Source of the DNA: an uncultured SAR86 cluster bacterium
Lineage (GTDB): Bacteria; Pseudomonadota; Gammaproteobacteria; Magnimaribacterales; D2472
Assembly: GCA_902528875.1 (NCBI GenBank)
Contig: CABZTX010000004.1
Location: 1 to 64,000 of the forward strand
DNA: 64,000 bases
Reading direction: 5' to 3'
Below are positions 5,323-29,919 of the stretch, piece by piece. The notes beneath the pieces were generated by a model. That model was not told the origin of the DNA. It ran no database searches and worked only from the letters and a program-made list of their open reading frames with translations. The number at the start of each line of letters is the position of its first letter. The stretch's first letter is position 1. A program made the translations under genes and the position numbers.

Positions 5323-6351
5323 ATGAAATCACTTATTTATGGTTATGGCGAGACCGGAAAATCTTTTGAAAGATATTTAATTAAAAAAAAATTAAAATAT
5401 GATATTTTTGATATAAATATTCCTGAACTTAATAAAAATTATAAACTCAAAAGTTATAATCAAATCTTATGTAGTCCTGGTATTCCAAAAGAAATATTTG
5501 AAAATTTAAAAAAAGCTAATAAGAATGTTTTAACTGACATAGATATTTTTTTTAAAGAAGACAATTCTATTAAAATTGGTATAACTGGCACTAATCGAAA
5601 AAGTACTACAGCATATCATTTGCATCAGTTGTTTAATATCTATAGTTCATCAAACCTTATTGGAAATATTGGAAACACAATGTTGGATAACATTAATAAT
5701 AATAGAGACTACTCTGTGATTGAGTTATCAAGCTTTCAACTAGATAAAATGAAAAAAAATAATTTAGATTATGGGATTTTATTAAATATTGATATTGATC
5801 ATCTGGATTATCACGGGGACTTTGAGTTATACAAACTTGCTAAAGAAAAAATCTTACAAGCAAAAAAAAGTATTTCATTTGAAATGGATCCATATATATT
5901 ATTTAATTGGATAACAAAATCAAAAGCTAAAGAAATTAAACTTAAGAATCTCCCTTATAGATTTGAGTCTATTTCTAATAGAATCATTAATGACTCAAAA
6001 TCTACTAATTCACACGCATTATTTTATGCCTTGAGGAAAGCAAACAAAATATTTGACTCAGACTACATCCTAATAGTTTGTGGAGATCCAAAAAAAGAGA
6101 AGTTCAGAGAGATATTTATTGATGGTCCAAACGAAGTTTTAATTTTTGGCAAACATTTAAATGAACTAAACAAATGTATACAGAATAGTAATAAGCATTC
6201 ATTTGAAACTCTTCAAGAATTACTTATTTTCATTAAAAATAAAAACAAACTACAAAATATTTTATTTTCCCCAGGATATCCCAGCGGAAAAGATTATAAA
6301 AATTTTATTGAGCGGGGTGAGGCCTTTGATTCCTTTGCAAAAAATATATAA
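5323..6351 (+). CDS. murD: Reduced UDP-MurNAc-L-Ala:D-Glu ligase MurD
   Basis: Position between mraY and ftsW and its motifs identify MurD: ELSSFQLD, DHLDYH, a candidate carbamylated Lys (K174), PYRFE (R213), NDSKSTN, and a C-terminal SPGYPSGKDYKNF. At 342 aa it is about 95 residues shorter than typical MurD. K174 to R213 spans about 39 residues, versus about 104 between the equivalent residues in E. coli, so the HN-containing part of the central domain is gone. The P-loop reads GTNRKST: the normally invariant Gly before Lys is Arg (codon CGA at 5596-5598). It is either an adapted minimal ligase or a gene with an impaired active site. Confidence 0.85.
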   Translation: MKSLIYGYGETGKSFERYLIKKKLKYDIFDINIPELNKNYKLKSYNQILCSPGIPKEIFENLKKANKNVLTDIDIFFKEDNSIKIGITGTNRKSTTAYHLHQLFNIYSSSNLIGNIGNTMLDNINNNRDYSVIELSSFQLDKMKKNNLDYGILLNIDIDHLDYHGDFELYKLAKEKILQAKKSISFEMDPYILFNWITKSKAKEIKLKNLPYRFESISNRIINDSKSTNSHALFYALRKANKIFDSDYILIVCGDPKKEKFREIFIDGPNEVLIFGKHLNELNKCIQNSNKHSFETLQELLIFIKNKNKLQNILFSPGYPSGKDYKNFIERGEAFDSFAKNI

Positions 6352-26675: not shown

Positions 26676-27398
26676 TTATTTTTCCCAATCAAACTTAGGC
26701 AATTCTTTGAATAAATTTCTTAATCCCTCAGACCACTTACTGGAAAGATCTGAGAAAAAAGGTGTCTTGAATTGAAGATGTTCTTCTTGAGAAATTTGAA
26801 TGGTGTCTTTTTTATAGACAATTAGATCTATTGGTGGACCCACAGTTAAGTCACTTTTCATAGTAGAATCAAATGAAACAAGCGCACATCTTGCTGCATC
26901 ACCTAAGGAAGTATCGTTTCTGATTAATCTATCTAAAATTGGCTTGCCGTATTTAGTTTCACCTAGTTGAAAAAAAGGCTTTATTTCTGATGCTCTAATA
27001 TAATTGCCAACAGGATATACCATCATCAAGTCAGGATCTTGTCCTTGAATTTGACCACCAATTATAAAATTAGAACCCAAATGAGTATTAAATGATATGC
27101 CATCAGTTTTTGAATGATTCCATGATATTTGTCCAACATAATCAGCAATATCGTCAAAATTTTTACATATATTTAAACTATTTAAGGGATTATTTGTATT
27201 CAGATCATTTTGTAAAGTTTTATATACATGTTGTGACGTTGATAAGTTTCCTGAGGTAACAATAACTATACATCTATCACCAACCGAATATGAGAACATT
27301 TTTTTATAGGTAGAAACATTATCTAATCCTGCATTAGTTCTTGAATCTGATACCATTACAATACCATCATCCACTTTCATTCCAACACAATATGTCAT
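26676..27398 (-). CDS. Proteasome-like peptidase Anbu (bacterial proteasome homologue)
   Basis: Ntn-hydrolase of 240 aa. It begins MTYCVGMKVDDGIV, so removal of Met would expose Thr as nucleophile; the following SDSRTNAG and YKK supply the Asp and Lys expected of a proteasome-type active site. QLGETKYGKPILDR is typical of Anbu. Family members assemble into open rings, and their substrates are not settled. It is transcribed away from the ATP-grasp and alpha-E genes; these three families co-occur widely. The transglutaminase-like protein often found with them is absent here. It shares the 183-bp intergenic region with the riboswitch-like RNA on the other strand. Confidence 0.9.
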   Translation of the reverse strand: MTYCVGMKVDDGIVMVSDSRTNAGLDNVSTYKKMFSYSVGDRCIVIVTSGNLSTSQHVYKTLQNDLNTNNPLNSLNICKNFDDIADYVGQISWNHSKTDGISFNTHLGSNFIIGGQIQGQDPDLMMVYPVGNYIRASEIKPFFQLGETKYGKPILDRLIRNDTSLGDAARCALVSFDSTMKSDLTVGPPIDLIVYKKDTIQISQEEHLQFKTPFFSDLSSKWSEGLRNLFKELPKFDWEK

Positions 27399-27496
27399 AT
27401 TTTTACTTAATTTATGAAATGACTATTCTATATTTATATAACAAAAAAATACATAATAATCATTATGTTTCCTGAGTGTCTTTGATAAAGTATATG

Positions 27497-27550
27497 AACG
27501 TTCATCTTTTAATAGAAGACGGAAGTAGGTGAGAGCCGAAGGAACGCGAT
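27497..27550 (+). promoter_or_regulatory. Glutamine riboswitch (glnA / Downstream-peptide RNA class)
   Basis: The conserved blocks of the glutamine aptamer appear in order: CGTTCATC (27499-27506), GACGGAAGTAGG (27518-27529) and CCGAAGGAACGCG (27536-27548). P1 pairs CGTTC (27499-27503) with GAACG (27542-27546). P2 is a small hairpin in 27505-27519, and GG (27528-27529) faces CC (27536-27537) for the third helix. The match is to nearly all invariant bases of a class known from cyanobacteria and marine metagenomes. It lies 35 bases upstream of the ATP-grasp start. Candidate expression platform: 27508-27519 can also pair with 27571-27582. Confidence 0.88.
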
Positions 27551-27581
27551 TCTTAATCTTATCTTATTCATTTTCTATTAA

Positions 27582-29027
27582 GTGTATAAATTTGAAATGA
27601 ATAATAAAACTAAAGAAAATAAATTATTTGACGAATATTTAAACAATAAGCGATTACCTCGGCAAGGTTTTGTCAATGCTTATAATTACTTTTCAAAACT
27701 AACACCATCAAAAAAAAGATTTTTAACAAAAACTCGCGATTCAATTATTAGGTCTATGGGAGTTACTTTCAGAGTTTATGACAATAATAAGCTTATTGAT
27801 AGAGACTGGCCGCTTGATTTAATACCCAGAATAATAAAGGAAAAAGAATGGATACAAGTTAAAGAGGGCCTTATACAGAGAATAAAAGCAGTAAATTTAT
27901 TTATTCATGATGTCTATCATAAGCAAGAGTTCCTTAATAAAAATCCTATTTTAAAATCGTTAATCTTAGAATCACCAAATTATTTAAAAGAATGTTCTGG
28001 GATAATTCCAAAAAATAAAATATGGGCAAATATTTCTGGTACTGACTTAATTAAAGATCACCAAGGTAATTTTTTTGTATTAGAAGATAATTTGAGAGTA
28101 CCATCTGGTGTTGCTTATATGCTTGAAAATAGAAATGTAATGAAAAAGGTGGTAACAGATCTTTTTAACAAATACCAAGTTTCACCAGTAGATGACTATA
28201 CTTCTCAACTTTATACATGTTTATCAAATGCAAGTTATAGCAAGGAAAAAAATAAGACTATAGTAATCCTAAGCCCTGGAGTTTTTAATTCAGCTTACTT
28301 TGAACATGCTTATTTAGCTCAACAAATGGGTGTTGATCTTGTTGAATCATCCGATTTATTTTTATCAAAAGATAATTATGTATGTTTAAAAACTATAAAT
28401 GGTCAAAAAAAAGTAGATGTGATTTACAGAAGAGTAAATGATAACTTTTTAGATCCTGAGGTATGGGAAAAAGATTCTGTTTTAGGAGTTCCAGGTATAA
28501 TTAAATCTTGGAAAGAAAGAAAGATCGCTATAGTTAATGCTCCGGGCTCTGGAGTTGCAGATGATAAAGCTGTATATGCCTTTGTTCCAAAAATGATTGA
28601 ATTTTTCCTTGGAGAGAAATCAAAACTCAAACAAGTAAAAACATATTTATGTGCTTTTGAAAAAGATAAGCAATATGTTTTAGAAAATATCAGTAAATTA
28701 GTTTTAAAGCCCGTAAATGAATCAGGTGGATATGGAATTTTAATAGGGCCTGGCGCTACAAAAAAAGAATTAAGTCAATACAAATTAAAAATACAATCCA
28801 ACCCGAGGAACTTTGTTGCACAACCTCTTATAAAACTCTCTACAACACCAACTCTTATAAAAACAAGTATTCAACCAAGGCATATTGATCTGCGTCCTTT
28901 TATTTTGTCGGGCAATAAAACTTTTGTGACTAATGGAGGACTAACAAGAGTTGCTCTAAAAAAAGGATCAACTATAGTAAATTCATCTCAAGGCGGTGGA
29001 AGTAAAGATACATGGATAGTTAATTAA
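27582..29027 (+). CDS. Circularly permuted ATP-grasp ligase (DUF404/DUF407 type)
   Basis: Protein of 481 aa of the circularly permuted ATP-grasp family, predicted to form a peptide-like amide bond using ATP; the substrate is unknown. Family marks include FDEYL near the start, FRVYDN, WPLDLIPRII, EDNLRVPSGVAYMLENR, DVIYRRVNDNFLDP, NAPGSGVADDKAVYAFVP, LKPVNESGGYGI, and RHIDLRPFIL. The start is GTG 27582, or ATG 27597 (five codons later), with no clear Shine-Dalgarno for either. One base separates it from the alpha-E gene, so they form an operon behind the glutamine riboswitch. A glutamine-dependent or glutamine-sensing role is inferred from that control. Confidence 0.9.
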   Translation: MYKFEMNNKTKENKLFDEYLNNKRLPRQGFVNAYNYFSKLTPSKKRFLTKTRDSIIRSMGVTFRVYDNNKLIDRDWPLDLIPRIIKEKEWIQVKEGLIQRIKAVNLFIHDVYHKQEFLNKNPILKSLILESPNYLKECSGIIPKNKIWANISGTDLIKDHQGNFFVLEDNLRVPSGVAYMLENRNVMKKVVTDLFNKYQVSPVDDYTSQLYTCLSNASYSKEKNKTIVILSPGVFNSAYFEHAYLAQQMGVDLVESSDLFLSKDNYVCLKTINGQKKVDVIYRRVNDNFLDPEVWEKDSVLGVPGIIKSWKERKIAIVNAPGSGVADDKAVYAFVPKMIEFFLGEKSKLKQVKTYLCAFEKDKQYVLENISKLVLKPVNESGGYGILIGPGATKKELSQYKLKIQSNPRNFVAQPLIKLSTTPTLIKTSIQPRHIDLRPFILSGNKTFVTNGGLTRVALKKGSTIVNSSQGGGSKDTWIVN

Positions 29028-29028
29028 A

Positions 29029-29919
29029 ATGTTATCAAGCATCGCAGAAAAAACATATTGGCTTTCTAGATATATTGAACGTATTGAAAATACCTCAAGA
29101 TTGATAAATGTAAATTCTGACCTTCTTCTCGATATACCTCATGATGAATCAAACGATTTAAAACATCTAATTAAGATTACAGGACATTTTGATGACTTTA
29201 AAAAAAGCAACTCAAAGGAAAATGTTTTTTTCTTTCTTATAGAAGACGAAAAAAATCCGTCTTCAATTAAATATTCAATTGAGATGGCAAAAATGAATTC
29301 AAGATATCTTTTAACAATGCTTCCTAAATCAGCTTGGGAACAATTCAACAATCTCTACTCTGATTTTAATAATGGCGCAGTAAAGAGAAATAGCGAAGAT
29401 TTGTATCAAATAATTAGAAATTCACAAAGATTTTTTGCAATTATTTCTGATGGAATGCAAAGAAATGATGTCTTTAATTTTATAAAGTTGGGAAGATTTA
29501 TTGAAAGAGCCGACATGCTTTCTAGAATTATTGAAGATCAAATTCTTAGAAAAGAAACTCATGTGAATAAATATTATCAAAATTTACAATGGAGTAGTGT
29601 TCTCAGGTCTATCAATGGATATGAATCTTTTAAAACTATAAATAAAGAGAATCTAAATCAAGAAGTAGTACTTGGTTTTATGATAATGGAAAAATTGTTT
29701 CCAAGATCTTTAAAATATTGTGTTGATAAGCTTGTTGAAGTTCAGAAATTTTTACCGCAGTCTACAAATATTAAAAAAATCACAAAATCTTTATTAAGAA
29801 ACCTTGAGAAAAATAATGTATATAAATACGATAAAAAAATATTAAAACATTTAGATAATTTTCAGTTTGGTTTAATTAAGTTAGATAAAGAAATTAATGA
29901 GAGGTTCTTTTCGTATTAA
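29029..29919 (+). CDS. Alpha-E domain protein (DUF403)
   Basis: All-helical protein of 296 aa starting MLSSIAEKTYWLSRYIERIENTSRL, which in shorter form (YWLSRYIERIENTSR) is the hallmark of alpha-E proteins. A second FIKLGRFIERADMLSRI segment repeats the pattern mid-protein. The family occurs almost always beside circularly permuted ATP-grasp ligases and is thought to act with them in making or modifying a peptide; no activity is established. It is directly downstream of the ATP-grasp gene. Its stop codon overlaps the convergent proS stop in the shared TTAA. Confidence 0.9.
   Translation: MLSSIAEKTYWLSRYIERIENTSRLINVNSDLLLDIPHDESNDLKHLIKITGHFDDFKKSNSKENVFFFLIEDEKNPSSIKYSIEMAKMNSRYLLTMLPKSAWEQFNNLYSDFNNGAVKRNSEDLYQIIRNSQRFFAIISDGMQRNDVFNFIKLGRFIERADMLSRIIEDQILRKETHVNKYYQNLQWSSVLRSINGYESFKTINKENLNQEVVLGFMIMEKLFPRSLKYCVDKLVEVQKFLPQSTNIKKITKSLLRNLEKNNVYKYDKKILKHLDNFQFGLIKLDKEINERFFSY

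Follow-up and report, generated by a model that had tools for sequence, protein, structure and literature searches.

What is a glutamine-sensing RNA doing at the head of an ATP-grasp/alpha-E operon in a SAR86 bacterium, and in which direction would it turn these genes? SAR86 bacteria are abundant heterotrophs in surface ocean waters. We study this locus in a 64,000-nucleotide stretch of SAR86 DNA (the window), together with its relatives in other genomes. The motif was originally listed as 'Cyanobacteria, marine' (Weinberg et al., PMC2864571), and a 2018 review describes glutamine riboswitches as restricted to cyanobacteria, leaving associations with glnA, PII and ammonium-transporter genes to unnamed environmental sequences (PMC6316151). 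We searched the open literature and found no description there of a glutamine riboswitch in SAR86. While the aptamer class is known, its host, its target and the predicted sign of its control are new. We consider it probable that a type-1 glutamine riboswitch heads the ATP-grasp/alpha-E mRNA in SAR86, ties the operon to nitrogen status and lets glutamine repress translation.

The sequence-only reading had placed a glutamine aptamer with paired P1, P2 and P3 helices at 27497-27552 and proposed a covariance-model check. An Rfam scan of the whole window bears this out: positions 27497-27550 of the forward strand match RF01739 (Glutamine) significantly and along the full length of the model (1-53 of 53), with a score of 61.5 bits where the cutoff is 35 (E 3.6e-11), and all three helices pair. 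The window holds two matches above Rfam gathering thresholds, one tRNA and this element. Sequence blocks related to the Glutamine-II (Downstream-peptide, RF01704) riboswitch are present in the aptamer, but membership of that family is rejected, since the score of 19.7 bits falls short of the cutoff, 33, and the aptamer is therefore type 1. It is the single RF01739 copy in the window genome (a 1.03 Mb assembly, 74% complete). Its parts are:

27497-27550, + strand: type-1 glutamine riboswitch aptamer RF01739 (cmscan; covariation on 37 aptamers)
27499-27503, + strand: P1 5' strand, CGUUC (cmscan alignment)
27505-27509, + strand: P2 5' strand (cmscan alignment; compensatory changes)
27515-27519, + strand: P2 3' strand (cmscan alignment; compensatory changes)
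27528-27530, + strand: P3 5' strand (cmscan alignment; compensatory changes)
27535-27537, + strand: P3 3' strand (cmscan alignment; compensatory changes)
27542-27546, + strand: P1 3' strand, GAACG (cmscan alignment)

The covariation set comprises 37 distinct aptamers, 35 from the SAR86 order and 2 from one other gammaproteobacterial family. Standard pairs fill 98.1% of its pair cells, both sides change in 7 of the 13 pairs, and the covariation score is 0.447 compared with 0.208 +/- 0.017 in shuffles (0 of 500 reach it); sliding the pairing abolishes the signal. This signal comes from P2 and P3, since P1 is invariant across the set and thus yields no covariation evidence. With the type-1 riboswitch (the glnA motif, RF01739, and the gifB leader of Synechocystis) the window aptamer shares the core GACGGAAGUAGG...CCGAAGGAACG and the P1-P3 layout, while its host is SAR86 and its target ATP-grasp/alpha-E. 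We regard the element as confirmed to be a genuine type-1 glutamine riboswitch aptamer. The host had been read as a gammaproteobacterium; it is SAR86, and almost every close relative that carries a name is a SAR86 cluster genome.

Which genes can such an element reach? The surroundings of the aptamer contain the following features:

26676-27398, - strand: Anbu (ancestral beta-subunit), divergent (solved Anbu structures 5loy/5nyj at E 6e-69/4e-59; PF00227 1.6e-10)
27424-27457, strand unassigned: near-invariant 34-bp AT-rich block TATTCTATATTTATATAACAAAAAAATACATAAT between Anbu and ATP-grasp (alignment of 12 orthologues)
27486-27491, + strand: -10-like hexamer TAAAGT (TAAAGT, TACAGT, TAGAGT or TATAAT at the aligned position in orthologues)
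27597-29027, + strand: circularly permuted ATP-grasp ligase, 476 aa, conserved ATG start (PF14403 2e-147, PF04174 1.7e-122)
29029-29919, + strand: Alpha-E protein, second gene of the operon (PF04168 1.2e-63)

The earlier proposal that the aptamer controls an Anbu-linked ATP-grasp/alpha-E operon is supported, with the correction that Anbu is divergent on the minus strand and beyond the reach of the switch, which can act only on ATP-grasp and alpha-E. The conserved ATP-grasp start is the ATG at 27597, 46 nt from the aptamer, and replaces the GTG at 27582 given by a mechanical ORF call. The closest solved structure for the ATP-grasp protein is 3n6x (E 2.7e-141), and the Anbu sequence has Thr1, Asp17 and Lys32 once Met is removed. 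Because the -10-like hexamer lies just before the aptamer, the transcript start would fall at or just before the aptamer; a generic promoter scan leaves this hexamer unreported and finds nothing above shuffles. The 34-bp block is possibly an upstream element or a site for a shared regulator.

The known Anbu operon consists of Anbu, ATP-grasp, alpha-E and transglutaminase, of which Anbu, CP_ATPgrasp and Alpha-E are present and linked in SAR86. The transglutaminase domain PF01841 is absent from 12 of 12 SAR86 genomes searched (8 of them at least 90% complete; the window's, 74% complete, is included), which makes this a three-gene version of the four-gene set (PMC6376114). SAR86 thus differs in having no transglutaminase, a divergent Anbu, and a sensor RNA instead of NtrC/sigma-54. 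The nitrogen link itself is already known in other bacteria, and what is new is the sensor. Burkholderia cenocepacia without NtrC shows 6- to 9-fold lower expression of the DUF404/407 and DUF403 (ATP-grasp/alpha-E) genes, and of the transglutaminase genes next to them (PMC5491218), a Pseudomonas putida cluster including a transglutaminase-like gene goes up on nitrogen limitation (PMC3325844), and Anbu expression is reported to be high under nitrogen starvation (PMC6376114). The SAR86 version appears likewise nitrogen-linked: the link to nitrogen or glutamine suggested from the sequence gains support both from NtrC control in this literature and from sigma-54 promoters on SAR86 homologues, described below. 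Since the operon is NtrC-dependent in Burkholderia, nitrogen control would be conserved while the sensor changes, the riboswitch taking the role that NtrC and sigma-54 have for this gene set elsewhere among bacteria. An Anbu-linked putative peptide ligase is a new riboswitch target, and gives an independent reason to study this system under nitrogen limitation.

We now consider the sign of control. The leader between aptamer and start codon contains these elements:

27548-27596, + strand: 5' UTR and predicted expression platform, close to a reverse complement of the aptamer (aptamer-UTR duplex at -25.4 kcal/mol; p = 0.002 relative to UTRs shuffled by dinucleotide)
27564-27574, + strand: sequestor arm UUAUUCAUUUU, predicted to pair with the start-codon region once the aptamer has formed (constrained fold)
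27571-27582, + strand: anti-aptamer strand UUUUCUAUUAAG, predicted to pair with 27508-27519 in the P2 region (minimum-energy fold; co-varies in orthologues)
27594-27604, + strand: start-codon arm GAAAUGAAUAA of the predicted sequestering hairpin (folding)

Orthologous leaders are 46-52 nt long, U/C-rich and G-poor. Their complementarity to the aptamer exceeds that of shuffles in G000, G063, G056, G098, G077, G053 and G062 (p 0.001-0.024) and is weaker in G069, G080, G079, G057 and G067 (p 0.055-0.2). We score the aptamer-leader helix by duplex energies and a cognate matrix, the MAFFT leader alignment being misaligned and unusable for formal pair counts. In this matrix some leaders prefer their own aptamer (G000/G063 and G062/G069), and the same two pairs carry compensatory aptamer-leader changes, A-U to G-C in each case, at different sites.

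Enforcing the aptamer in the window fold lowers the accessibility of positions -6 to +6 around the AUG from 0.54 to 0.11. The direction is the same in 7 of 7 intact orthologues, with an average change of about zero for shuffled leaders; as energy-model estimates, the drops are individually significant in 4 of the 7 at 37 C and in 2 of the 7 at 20 C. In the G056 lineage the folded AUG is occluded with and without the aptamer formed. The start-codon hairpin is kept in several lineages despite changing sequence. An intrinsic terminator was considered as expression platform, and none was found in the region; sequestration of a Shine-Dalgarno sequence, as in the tandem-aptamer peptide leaders described below, was set aside since no Shine-Dalgarno is seen before the ATG at 27597. 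We picture the switch as follows: at low glutamine the U-rich leader would pair with the aptamer core, leaving the start codon more open so that the ligase operon is made; at high glutamine the aptamer would fold (P1-P3) and free the leader, which would then pair with the AUG region and block initiation, making the element a translational OFF switch. We infer that it binds glutamine in SAR86, that its sign is OFF and that it works on translation, not on transcription. In the folding model glutamine would repress translation, whereas the cyanobacterial switches that have been tested activate expression; an OFF sign fits what is known of the operon's biology.

Is the arrangement maintained? RF01739 occurs in 50 of 107 genomes of the family, and the ATP-grasp gene in 16 of 106. 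Looking for the aptamer before orthologous operons, a check that the sequence-only reading had also proposed, we find it upstream of 13 of them in three SAR86 genera (12 aligned plus SP147, L112): ten copies are intact in their core, beside ATP-grasp proteins 81-97% identical to the window's, and three (G080, G062, G069) are eroded, with altered core or P1. The operon has a patchy distribution in the window's genus, and the aptamer accompanies it, with an above-cutoff RF01739 match in 8 of 10 operon-bearing genomes; the exceptions are G069, with a sub-cutoff match (26.4 bits), and G062, with a recognisable eroded copy that gives no significant match. In operon-less genomes of this genus thiolase and proS directly adjoin, which points to gain or loss of a cassette of about 3.2 kb. 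Comparison of these sequences indicates that Anbu, riboswitch, ATP-grasp and alpha-E come and go together, as one cassette. Between G098, from another genus, and G056, identity is about 81% in the flank but 99-100% over the cassette, with the break inside thiolase (L043 compared with L032), a sign of recent cassette transfer between SAR86 genera. In the eroded aptamers (L080, L081 and L077, of G069, G062 and G080) GACGG has become GACAG and P1 is broken, with leader complementarity kept. These three lineages suggest that control there is dispensable or altered; a changed ligand or a locked state is possible.

How else might these data be read? Glutamine binding could instead raise expression of the ligase operon, with the system running at nitrogen excess (for example in storage-peptide synthesis). 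Such an ON switch would suit ligases of the ATP-grasp type, which could use up glutamine or produce peptides rich in nitrogen. The studied type 1 and type 2 glutamine riboswitches, which are cyanobacterial, do activate expression (PMC6316151), but the leader folds the opposite way in all seven intact orthologues, NtrC activates the gene set in Burkholderia, and Anbu is expressed under nitrogen starvation, so that we think an ON switch unlikely. The U/C-rich, G-poor composition of the leaders also leaves room for an aptamer that acts on transcription, through Rho-dependent or pausing-based termination in the leader and not at the start codon; given the missing intrinsic terminator and a start-codon hairpin that outlasts changes in its sequence across several lineages, we rate this as quite improbable. 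Much the least credible to us is that the aptamer is a passive relic on a mobile cassette, no longer regulating in SAR86. The eroded cores in three lineages and the recent move of the cassette between genera are what such a relic would leave, yet ten copies linked to the operon retain the core without change, leader and aptamer have co-varied, and intact aptamers stand on glnA and amtB elsewhere in the family. We carry forward the reading in which glutamine represses translation.

The same family offers a comparison with a second mode of nitrogen control. Sigma-54 is the classical nitrogen-control promoter. In SAR86 genus g5 a sigma-54 -24/-12 element, TGGCAT-N5-TTGCA, lies about 43 bp upstream in 3 of 3 homologous operons, and exact matches to it number only 5-8 per g5 genome; no aptamer is found upstream of the four ATP-grasp operon homologues in g5/g7. 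The window genome has exact sigma-54 sites before a TonB receptor and before torF-glnK-amtB. Homologues of these genes in genus g3 (TonB receptor 68-70% and torF-amtB 64% identical) instead have glutamine aptamers in tandem arrays of two to three, and the g3 torF-amtB operon is without glnK (arrays before torF-amtB or the TonB receptor: L047, L067, L068, L069, L071, L048). Genus g3 also carries an aptamer on glnA. RpoN and a strong NtrC match are absent in 10 of 10 g3 genomes, and PII is absent in 9 of 10. Loss of NtrC fails as the cause of the riboswitch in the window's genus, which keeps RpoN, an NtrC-like protein and PII, as the window genome itself does; that explanation holds only for g3. 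The ATP-grasp operon is thus under sigma-54 in g5 and under the riboswitch in g1/g8, and the g3 genes show the reverse direction relative to the window genome. As read from promoter and aptamer sequences, the same nitrogen genes occur under either controller across SAR86.

We lean towards the view that SAR86 glutamine riboswitches and PII/NtrC/sigma-54 can stand in for each other as controllers of the same nitrogen genes, with the riboswitch repressing in this lineage. A substantial though lesser chance goes to separate acquisition, in which the riboswitch- and sigma-54-controlled ATP-grasp operons came from different sources and control was never exchanged. The g5/g7 homologues do sit at a different chromosomal location, and their alpha-E is only 52-55% identical compared with 63-70% for ATP-grasp; against this, the divergent Anbu/ATP-grasp/alpha-E layout is shared, Anbu is 75% identical, and the TonB receptor and torF-amtB show the sigma-54/riboswitch exchange too. 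Separate acquisition, if true, would alter the history and not the function. Exchange of controllers on shared genes is the most interesting lead here and, if true, would be a natural and rare case of an RNA sensor replacing a protein regulatory cascade, visible within one bacterial family.

The aptamer is rare beyond SAR86: in a sample of 369 gammaproteobacteria RF01739 occurs in 4, the window genome included, and in a phylum sample the single carrier among 399 is the window genome itself. Within the family, intact aptamers on glnA and amtB make SAR86 genomes a named host for at least some of the environmental associations. In G392, of another gammaproteobacterial family (1.1 Mb), aptamers L099 and L102 precede gltB-like and gltD-like ORFs, read as the large and small subunits of glutamate synthase; each is followed by a perfect hairpin CACCAAACU...AGUUUGGUG. 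The marine phage Melnitz carries a glutamine riboswitch of the same aptamer class, also in a marine gammaproteobacterial setting, but that one sits in a phage at ssrA, and its OM43 host is without the aptamer (PMC9004378).

Further SAR86 aptamers precede small proteins. At L051, L064 and L066 an aptamer lies before a small DUF4177-like protein (MTKWEYKIVDHS...; PF13783 E 4e-5, just below the curated cutoff). Tandem type-1 aptamers at L026 (about 1501-1850) and L058 (about 5356-5690) stand before a 54-56 aa DUF4278-like peptide (PF14105 E 1.1e-6 and 1e-4), a domain that occurs in the cyanobacterial glutamine-synthetase inactivating factor IF17. Tandem aptamers at L020, L022, L031, L050 and L017 precede a 52-54 aa basic peptide ending in FFPYYL, for which two tested examples gave no Pfam family, and in these leaders a CAUCU...AGGAGAUG hairpin lies over the Shine-Dalgarno sequence.
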